Shown: one piece after another, positions 6,803 to 9,800 of the stretch
Layout of the letters: the number at the start of each line of letters is the position of its first letter
Numbering within the stretch: the stretch's first letter is position 1
NCBI GenBank assembly: GCA_016213205.1
Contig: JACRAZ010000071.1
Location: 1 to 64,000, forward strand
From: Burkholderiales bacterium
GTDB lineage: Bacteria; Pseudomonadota; Gammaproteobacteria; Burkholderiales; Burkholderiaceae_C
Direction of reading: 5' to 3'
Length of the DNA: 64,000 nucleotides
Notes under the pieces: model-generated
What the model saw: the letters and a program-made list of their open reading frames with translations, nothing else
Database searches by the model: none
What the model was told of the DNA's origin: nothing
Made by a program: the position numbers and the translations under genes

Positions 6803-9800
6803 TCAGCCCGCCGGTGGCGGGCCCCAGCCGCCCCCGCCGGGGGTCTCGATCACGAACACGTCGCCCGCGCCCATGGCCACCTCACCGATGTGGCCCAGTG
6901 GCTCGATGCGGCCATCGGCGCGCTCGACCCGGTTGATGCCCGGCGCGCCGGCCTGCCCGCCGGCCAGGCCGAAGGCGCCATGTTCGCGGCCGTTGCTGAG
7001 GATGGCCGCCGTCATGGGCTGCAGGAAGCGCACGCGGCGCACGCCGCCATCACCACCGTGCCAGCGGCCGGCACCGCCCGAGCCCTGGCGGATCTCGTAG
7101 CTGTCCAGCCGCACGGGGTAGCGGAACTCCAGCACCTCGGGGTCGGTGAGGCGCGAGTTGGTCATGTGGGTCTGCACGACCGAGGTGCCATCGAAGCCCG
7201 GGCCGGCGCCGGAGCCGCCGGAGATGGTTTCGTAGTACTGGTGCCGCTCGTCGCCGAAGGTGAAGTTGTTCATCGTGCACTGGCTGGCCGCCATCACGTT
7301 GAGCGCGCCGTACAGCGCGTTGGTCACGCAGGACGAGGTCTCCACGTTGCCGGCCACCACCGCGGCCGGCGCGCGCGGGTTGAGCATGCAGCCCTCGGGC
7401 ACGATCACGTGCAGCGGCTTCAGGCAGCCGGCGTTCAGCGGGATGTCGTCGTCCACCAGCGTGCGGAACACGTACAGCACCGCGGCCATGGTCACGGCCT
7501 TGGGCGCATTGAAGTTGTTGCCCAGCTGCGCGCTGGTGCCGCTGAAATCGATGGTCGCGCTGCGCTGCGCGGCATCGACGCTCACCTTCACGACGATGCG
7601 CGCACCGTTGTCCAGCGGCAGTTCAAAGTGACCATCGTGCAGCGCGGTGATCACGCGGCGCACCGATTCCTCGGCGTTGTCCTGCACGTGGCGCATGTAG
7701 GCGGCCACGGTGCCGCGGCCGAACTGCTCGACCATGGCCCGCAGTTCCTGCACGCCCTTTTCGTTGGCGGCGATCTGCGCGCGCAGGTCGGCGATCGTCT
7801 GGTCGGGGTTGCGCGCCGGCCACTGGCCGCTGGCGAGCTGGTCGCGCAGCGCCTGTTCGCGCAGCGTGCCGTCGCGCACCAGCAGGAAGTTGTCGAACAG
7901 CACGCCCTCTTCCTCGATGCTGCGCGAGAACGGCGGCACCGAGCCCGGCGTGATGCCGCCGATGTCGGCATGGTGGCCGCGGCTGGCGACGTAGAAACTC
8001 GGCTGGGCGCCCTGCGCATCGGTTTCGGATCCGGGTTCCCCGGTCCGAAACGCGCCCCCCCGGGGGGCAGCGACCACCGGGAGCGTGGGGGCATCAAGAT
8101 ACACCGGTGTCACCACCGTCACGTCCGGCAGGTGCGTGCCGCCGTGGTACGGGTCGTTCAGCACGTACACGTCGCCCTGGCGCATCCCGGGGTTGCGCTC
8201 GATCACGGTCTTGATCGATTCGCTCATCGAGCCCAGGTGCACCGGCATGTGCGGCGCGTTGGCGATGAGCTGGCCCTGCGCATCGAACAGCGCGCAGGAG
8301 AAGTCCAGCCGTTCCTTGATGTTCACCGAGTAGGCGGTGTTCTGCAGCCGCAGGCCCATCTGCTCGGCGATGTTCATGAACAGGTTGTTGAACACCTCCA
8401 GCATCACCGGGTCGGCCTCGGTGCCGATGGCATGCGCCACCACGCGCGGGCGGATGCGCTGCAGCGTGAGCGAGCCCTCCTCGCCCAGGCGGGCCTGCCA
8501 GCCGGGCTCGACCACCGTGGTGGCGTTGCGCTCGGCGATGATGGCGGGCCCGTCGATCAACGCGCCGGCCGGCAGCGTGTCGCGCAGGTGCAGGCCGGCC
8601 TCGCGCCACTTCTGGCCCGGACCGTCGCCCGTGCCATCGTCGGCCGCGCAGTACATCTGCACCATGGCCTTCGGCGCGGGCCGCTGCGAGACGGCAAACG
8701 CCGCGGCCGCCGGCTCGGGCATGTGCTCGCCGGCGCCGATGGCCTCCACCGAGACGGCCTCGATCACCAGCGCGCGGTCGGGCATCAGGAAGGCAAATCG
8801 CTGGCGGTAGGCGGCCTCGAACTCGGCCTGGGCGCTGCGCGCGTCGGCCATCGCCACTTCGAGCGCGGTGTCGGTGCCGTCGTAGCGCAGGTGCAGGCGC
8901 TCGCGGCGGTGGATGCGTTCGGTGGGCACGCCCTGGCTCAGCAGCTCGGCCTCGGCCTGTGCGCCGAGCTCGGCCACGCGTTCACGCGCGGCGGCCAGGC
9001 CGGCGGCATCGAGCGGGCGCTCGATCGAGGCCTCGCGCATCGCGATCTGGTCGGCCAGGCCCATGCCATAGGCCGAGAGCACGCCGGCCAGCGGGTGCAC
9101 CAGCACGCGCTGCATGCCCAGCGCATCGGCCACCGCGCAGGCATGCTGGCCGCCGGCACCGCCAAAGCATTGCAGCGTGTAGTGCGTGACGTCGTAGCCG
9201 CGCGCCACCGAGATGCGCTTGACCGCATTGGCCATGCTCGCCACCGCGATCTGCAGCGCACCGGCGGCCACGCCTTCGGGCGTGATCGGCTTGCCGCTGG
9301 CGGCCGTCAAACGCTGCGCCAGGGCGCCAAACTTCGCGACCACGGCCTCGCGGTCCAGCGGCTCGTCGGCGCCGGGGCCGAACACGCGCGGAAAGTGCGC
9401 TGGCTGGATCTTGCCCAGCATCACGTTCGCATCGGTCACGGCCAGCGGGCCGCCGCGCCGGTAGCAGGCCGGGCCCGGGTTGGCACCGGCCGATTCGGGG
9501 CCCACGCGCAGCCGCGCCCCATCGAAGCCGATGATCGAGCCGCCGCCGGCGGCCACGGTGTGGATGCTCATCATCGGCGCGCGCATGCGCACGCCGGCGA
9601 CCAGGGTTTCGAAGGCGCGCTCGAACTCGCCGGCGAAGTGCGACACGTCGGTGGAAGTGCCGCCCATGTCGAAGCCGATCACCTTGTCGTGGCCCGCGGC
9701 CTGCGCCGTGCGCACCATGCCCACGATGCCGCCGGCCGGGCCGGACAGGATGGCGTCCTTGCCCTGGAAGCGGTGCGCCTCGGTGAGGCCGCCCGAGCTC

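Follow-up and report, generated by a model that had tools for sequence, protein, structure and literature searches.

How does a palindromic repeat of a kind that normally lies between genes come to sit, in frame, inside the gene of an enzyme, and what becomes of that enzyme? The question is raised by the first 64,000 nucleotides of contig JACRAZ010000071.1 of a Burkholderiales bacterium (assembly GCA_016213205.1), hereafter called the window, in which a preliminary description had noticed a 71-base composite palindrome within a putative 5-oxoprolinase gene. We confirmed this palindrome at 8022 to 8092, within the open frame from 6803 to 10528 on the minus strand, and the reading of it as a composite repeat of palindromic type, lying in frame within a HyuA-HyuB gene, holds. 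What the preliminary description missed is that the loop encoded there is a recurrent target: it is a landing site on which unrelated repeats have repeatedly settled in related bacteria. The features concerned are as follows.

6803 to 10528, minus strand: predicted fused HyuA-HyuB gene, 1241 amino acids (Hydant_A_N, Hydantoinase_A, Hydant_A_C, Hydantoinase_B)
7997 to 8098, minus strand: codons of the enlarged loop, residues 811 to 844, a low-confidence stretch between two strands in the model
8022 to 8092, unstranded: composite palindromic repeat, 71 nt, with repeat matches in its own genome
8022 to 8051, unstranded: left hairpin, 30 nt, whose core CGGATCCGGGTTnCCCGGtCCG is common to seven other genome copies and whose outer stem covaries
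8052 to 8092, unstranded: right part, 41 nt, G/C-rich, GCGCCCCC..GGGGGGCAGCGA..GAGCGTGGGGG, paired in other copies with a different left hairpin
8016 to 8020, plus strand: GCATC, left copy of a direct repeat of 5 bp flanking the element, not beyond chance
8091 to 8095, plus strand: GCATC, right copy of that direct repeat, not beyond chance

The window protein matches the four domain models PF05378, PF01968, PF19278 and PF02538 above their gathering scores (Hydant_A_C barely), while NCBIfam returned matches below cut-off only; judged from its domains, the gene is a predicted fused HyuA-HyuB gene of the 5-oxoprolinase/hydantoinase type, and the label 5-oxoprolinase denotes a predicted class. The insertion keeps the reading frame, since the element sits in an open frame of 1241 amino acids. 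The loop between VTPVY and FYVASRGHH comprises 34 residues (811 to 844) in the window protein and 9 residues in Aquabacterium terrae (L027) and A. humicola (L043), the two named relatives closest to it at 86% identity, which corresponds to a net gain of 25 residues instead of the roughly 31 first proposed.

The case for a repeat rests on repetition, not on the strength of the stems. A 31-nt piece of the element matches only itself in the window (with no match in 100 shuffles), and a 101-nt region finds 13 other places at E<0.01, the best at 6.9e-9, in its own genome, which comprises 6.02 Mb in 109 contigs and is 94% complete. Copies of one type have the same left hairpin core with a different right part (L013, L017 to L020, L023 and L024), and those of the other type have the same right part with a different left hairpin (L008 to L012 and others). 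Because each half matches a separate copy type, the window copy combines, as a mosaic, two repeat types that are dispersed in its own genome. Furthermore, in eight copies of the left hairpin 95.5% of the cells are paired while the outer-stem bases vary, and 12 double-changed cells were counted against 3.3 in shuffles, none of the 500 shuffles reaching that number; since the outer stems vary among the seven copies of the first type and the pairing is nevertheless kept, the left hairpin itself is maintained. The expectation that repeats of this type normally lie between genes was also borne out, in that 18 of the 19 other own-genome copies examined, classed by GC-frame and translation without annotation, are not deep within a gene: 13 lie outside any GC-frame-supported open segment or at most about 30 bases from the end of one, and 5 are close to the 5' end of such a segment, ahead of its plausible start.

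The remaining copy, deep within a gene (L021, also L199; G000:C78, about 45506 to 45525), is an in-frame right-part repeat in the other orientation relative to its gene, which gives sub-threshold matches to models for the large subunit of anthranilate dioxygenase and its relatives. The same or a similar full length was found at this site in G199, G105 and G138, and 4 of 82 matching genomes keep the query length. Since the dioxygenase-like peptide read there in L199 and L201 derives from the same repeat type in both, a single insertion common to both seems a better reading of the site than another hotspot.

How often the enzyme loop itself has been enlarged was followed in a family survey of 399 genomes, with matches to the gene at E<=1e-60 in 234. 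Where the alignment was broken or partial, a second search located the loop and its sequence was read; 179 places aligned without a break were filtered on length, and 20 of them with large gains were retrieved. Together these steps cover all 234 genomes; two partial second matches (G394 C158 and G336 C21) stand outside the loops read. A loop of at least 20 residues occurs in 26 of the 234 genomes, namely the window genome, 19 genomes with broken alignments, and G211, G242, G338, G172, G161 and G066; one further long-loop genome, G408, came from a genus search. No stop was reported within the matches, and all 26 survey inserts are in frame, an outcome with a probability of 4e-13 if frame were irrelevant and all inserts were independent (at least two genomes, G061 and G251, share one insert). 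The loops reach up to 77 residues, and four of them (L161, L168, L171 and L175) contain two repeat copies. Among 81 full-length sequences, comprising the window protein and 80 relatives, 13 of the 15 insertions of at least 15 residues fall at this loop, and the other two are located at residue 278 and at residue 1210 of L027, near the C-terminus.

In a FastTree phylogeny of 159 rows, enriched for inserts and built with the loop left out, the 34 long-loop rows fall into 25 clades, with 23 or more changes of state. The true number of events is likely to exceed 25, because different repeat types occur together within two of the larger clades; extra insert-free rows should split clades and not join them. 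In a class-wide survey, where 177 of the 369 genomes searched gave matches at E<=1e-40, many of them distant or separate-subunit relatives, the largest net gain outside the family among the places listed was 13 residues (G629 and G727, loop sequences unread). The preliminary description had named one finding that would speak against its reading, namely close relatives all carrying an equivalent 31-residue segment of unrelated DNA. Instead, 106 of the 160 distinct loops read, in a set enriched for inserts, have 11 residues or fewer; a minority of relatives does carry long segments, and because these consist of unrelated repeat DNA, the repeat reading is strengthened by them.

The repeats in the long loops were sorted by seven motifs picked by eye from these same loops, with background stretches of the same genes as the sole control.

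P1: arms CCCTCACCCC..CCCTCTCCC
P2: arms CCCTCCCCC
P3: the type of the window
P4: TTGGGGCGGCCCGGCG
P5: GCGGCCGGGCG type, which may be related to P4
P6: CCTGTCGAA
P7: GCGTTGAGCG-like, weak, common in the background and not counted

At least one of the seven motifs occurs in 31 of the 35 long loops, compared with 217 of 7000 stretches of equal length drawn from the same genes; P7 makes up 196 of these 217 background matches, and without it 29 of the 35 long loops are assigned to six types. P3 appears in both orientations (the window versus L064 and L082), and different types are found even among the tree neighbours L165, L167, L168 and L169. Inserts are shared by L064 and L082 and, in their left part, by L163 and L172, and the window and L028 have the same composite type. 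The inserts of L064 and L082 differ at 1 of 108 nt; we make no claim of special conservation, because the near flanks also differ little (2 and 4 of 60). Moreover, the origin of the inserts within their own genomes was searched in six genomes with one joined query and at most 40 candidates scored per genome, taking the listed rows with overlaps merged. Other places for the genome's own insert type number at least 35 in G005 (two of them within the same gene), at least 12 in G176, at least 6 in G297 and at least 1 in G053.

Whole genes from 20 insert-bearing genomes, chosen for their large inserts, contain further in-frame insertions beyond the main loop: at residue 278 in G005 (90 residues), G100, G192, G266 and G176, at residue 300 in G297 (two copies), at residue 872 in G176, and others elsewhere. 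The DNA was read for six of these further insertions, and those of G005, G192, G297, G266 and G176 (residue 872) are visibly repeat-like. Another insertion of at least 15 residues was found in 8 of the 20 insert-bearing genes versus 2 of 68 insert-free first-set genes (Fisher p 6.6e-5), one of these two, L072, falling to 13 residues on realignment; with the first set pooled the counts are 8 of 33 versus 2 of 68 (p 0.002). The load of repeats in a genome probably matters for insertions at other loops, as far as 20 genes picked for large inserts can tell. Two of the residue-278 sites may be described individually. In the HyuA half of L211 (G005) the 90 residues form a stacked-repeat stretch, present besides a 42-residue main loop, and L226 (G266) has a different in-frame repeat, with the peptide LPVILSEAKDL...LRSAQ, which we take to resemble a widespread bacterial repeat.

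The HyuB half of the window protein was modelled with a mean predicted local distance difference test score (pLDDT) of 68.4, and model residues 109 to 134, in the loop, have pLDDT<50 and sit between strands 97 to 104 and 140 to 147; in this model the loop would be the disordered tip of a beta-hairpin. Among solved structures the best relatives are 9h03 and 6yra_B, and in the alignment with the N-methylhydantoinase 7hk5 the aligned stretches are 2 residues apart, versus 30 in the window protein. The two conserved motifs flanking the loop are placed at the opposite end of the two strands, and the equivalent residues presumably bind metal in related carboxylases. Open frames of at least 1198 residues were found in 25 of the 26 survey genes, the other (G161) being cut by the contig end at 537. 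The ratio of nonsynonymous to synonymous substitution rates (dN/dS) ranges from 0.11 to 0.41 over 11 pairs and is 0.125 between two genes with one shared insert. Frame and dN/dS together argue that the gene is kept under purifying selection, and the enzyme is presumably active. As to the two outcomes that the preliminary description had placed side by side, a surface loop or a silent loss of function, the conservation of the frame, the dN/dS values and the predicted disorder of the hairpin tip favour the surface loop.

In our opinion it is likely that tolerance of the fold, combined with a traffic of repeats, explains the loop best. Several unrelated, non-autonomous short palindromic repeats would be copied around the genomes of the family and would land everywhere, the copies examined in the window's own genome being located for the most part in intergenic DNA or at the ends of genes. 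A copy within a gene would survive only if the frame is kept, the frame used has no stop and the fold tolerates the peptide. One HyuB beta-hairpin tip may tolerate such inserts, so that an in-frame repeat would become a disordered loop, often Pro/Gly-rich, in an enzyme that would stay under purifying selection; repeats might stack at this tip and later decay, resulting in loops of up to 77 residues. The identity of the repeats, their frame, their recurrence, the diversity of repeat types and the concentration at one loop are shown by the data; near neutrality of the insertions, activity of the enzyme, decay as the origin of the short odd loops and the manner in which the copies move are inferences.

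Several observations weigh against this explanation. The plus strand of 8012 to 8102 folds at -46.3 kcal/mol (z -1.96), a value equalled by 7 of 200 shuffles, and the sense strand of the insert is ordinary compared with same-length stretches of its own gene (rank 0.36), for which it is not unusually stable; because the fold is mildly unusual on one strand and ordinary for the gene on the other, stem strength alone is weak evidence. Similarly, 20 of the 35 long loops are not unusually stable at the 5% level, four match no motif (L052, L083, L105 and L184) and two match only the weak P7. In G408 and G324 no further copy of the genome's own insert was present among the at most 40 candidates scored per genome, none of the 13 insert-bearing first-set genes has a second insertion of at least 15 residues, and the structural model is, by its mean pLDDT, of medium confidence. 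Finally, dN/dS of the window gene is 0.20 and 0.23 versus the insert-free L027 and L043, compared with 0.11 between these two, and reaches 0.41 versus L030; since the window values exceed that between insert-free relatives, a mild relaxation is possible.

Values about twice that of the insert-free pair could also be expected of an intact-looking pseudogene, but the inserts that are in frame in 26 of 26 cases, the long open frames and the dN/dS of 0.125 after a shared insertion make a silent loss of function, in our judgement, very unlikely. At the other extreme, the inserts could be adaptive, with the added loop or an mRNA hairpin modulating the enzyme or its expression, and it would agree with this that they occur in many lineages, that four loops hold two copies each and that 14 of the 35 long loops are more stable than all 150 same-length stretches of their own gene. 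However, peptides, frames, repeat types and orientation all vary, most relatives have no insert and other loops take repeats too, and we regard adaptation as decidedly unlikely. It is also possible to imagine a single ancestral long loop that diverged and was mostly lost, as the insert shared by L064 and L082, the left part shared by L163 and L172 and the composite type common to the window and L028 might suggest. Such common descent is extremely unlikely in view of the 25 clades with their 23 or more changes of state (numbers that horizontal transfer of the gene may have affected), of the types that differ among the neighbours L165, L167, L168 and L169, and of the insert types of G005 and G176, which are those dispersed in their own hosts.

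An artefact of assembly or binning comes to mind because several of the named insert carriers are metagenome-assembled genomes; its probability is almost negligible, given that G176, which has a two-copy insert, is listed as a single contig, that the survey frames are intact and that a loop of 28 residues is present in the isolate Ramlibacter alkalitolerans (L060), though its insert matches only the weak P7. The concentration of 13 of 15 large insertions at one site, though several other loops vary in length, would be consistent with a hotspot at the level of DNA, where a preferred sequence or structure of the loop DNA, and not tolerance, draws the repeats. We consider it unlikely, since the P1 modules, present in 10 loops, first start 3 to 35 nt from the left loop edge (200 in one stacked loop) and two reading frames are used for their arms (PHPnPLP and SPQPSP), while different repeat types share the site, no consistent flanking duplication is seen and repeats also occur in other loops of the gene. 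It is conceivable, although doubtful, that the hairpin tip is a true capture site, where properties of the DNA and tolerance of the fold together collect unrelated palindromes from the repertoire of the host; if so, new protein segments would have been built repeatedly from hairpin DNA by convergence.

With regard to the movement that fold tolerance and repeat traffic would presuppose, mobilisation by a transposase associated with repetitive extragenic palindromic sequences (REPs), the RAYT (Y1_Tnp, PF01797), was considered and rejected. No match was found in the window's own genome, 94% complete, by a search that was positive as a control in 5 of 14 genomes. Over 54 genomes the Y1 transposase is not associated with the inserts, because 16 of the 27 genomes with inserts and 15 of the 27 others contain it, these others being insert-free genomes among the best gene matches, unmatched for size or lineage. 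Both strands of the 71-nt element lack GTAG and CGTC. The window element is flanked by GATGC, and virtual excision there leaves a 9-residue loop; target-site duplication as a rule was rejected, given that 22 of 100 shuffles are flanked likewise and that 23 of the 35 long loops have no flanking repeat of at least 5 nt. A known RNA element was also discarded, the sole nearby Rfam match being far below its gathering score.

Elsewhere in the window, positions 11049 to 11360 and 14028 to 14339, 2979 nt apart, share stretches (families D8 and D11) that agree at 75 to 78%, which would fit a pair of related genes close to the enzyme gene.

A palindromic repeat in frame within a gene belongs to a known kind, as Rickettsia palindromic elements (RPEs) and intragenic REPs demonstrate; what is striking here is that one loop has received different repeats many times. 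In the literature searched, which contained few subscription papers and was covered chiefly by title, we recognised no report of this loop or of such convergence. Bacterial interspersed mosaic elements (BIMEs) and REP doublets forming hairpins (REPINs) are composite stem-loops, multi-copy and mostly intergenic. The window element is like them in its two stem-loops, its multiple copies mostly between genes and the pairing kept with different bases, and unlike them in that a transposase link was not found and the window copy lies within a gene.

REPs are defined as palindromic or stem-loop sequences with multiple similar copies per genome and a usually extragenic location (PMC12306157), and all three traits are found in the window element, whose copy in the window is itself an intragenic exception. 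Among GTAG/CGTC REPs within open reading frames, over half are dimers or groups, coding for 20 to 30 residues, and recB of two Xanthomonas species contains different REPs at about the same site (PMC3733652); different from these, the window element lacks GTAG and CGTC and its genome lacks a Y1 transposase match. The G/C-rich intrastrand triplex motif (TM, also BoxC or PIT) has the pattern CCCTCNCCC-N3-6-GGGNGAGGG-N3-GGGNGAGGG (PMC4666352), which occurs in 8 of the 35 long loops (L031, L063, L164, L166, L167, L171, L175 and L185) and not in the window insert; the available part of that paper does not mention in-frame insertion for TM.

A further likeness, judged by description, is to the RPEs, short palindromic repeats found in frame in protein genes (Ogata et al. 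2000 and 2002, cited through PMC10969869, PMC3767692 and PMC3733652), whose fusions have been reviewed (PMC10969869): in both cases a palindromic insert sits in frame in a conserved gene. Different from the RPEs, several repeat types with no evident likeness to one another are found here, in high-GC hosts of another bacterial group, at one loop and in many lineages. For Rickettsia sites with different RPE types, the available text of PMC3767692 leaves open whether they represent a hotspot or one diverged old insertion. The loop described in our study bears on that question with a natural series of empty sites and of single, stacked and apparently decayed inserts, in many lineages at one enzyme loop, which lets one measure what peptides are tolerated, how repeats move without a visible Y1 transposase and how a non-coding repeat becomes protein.
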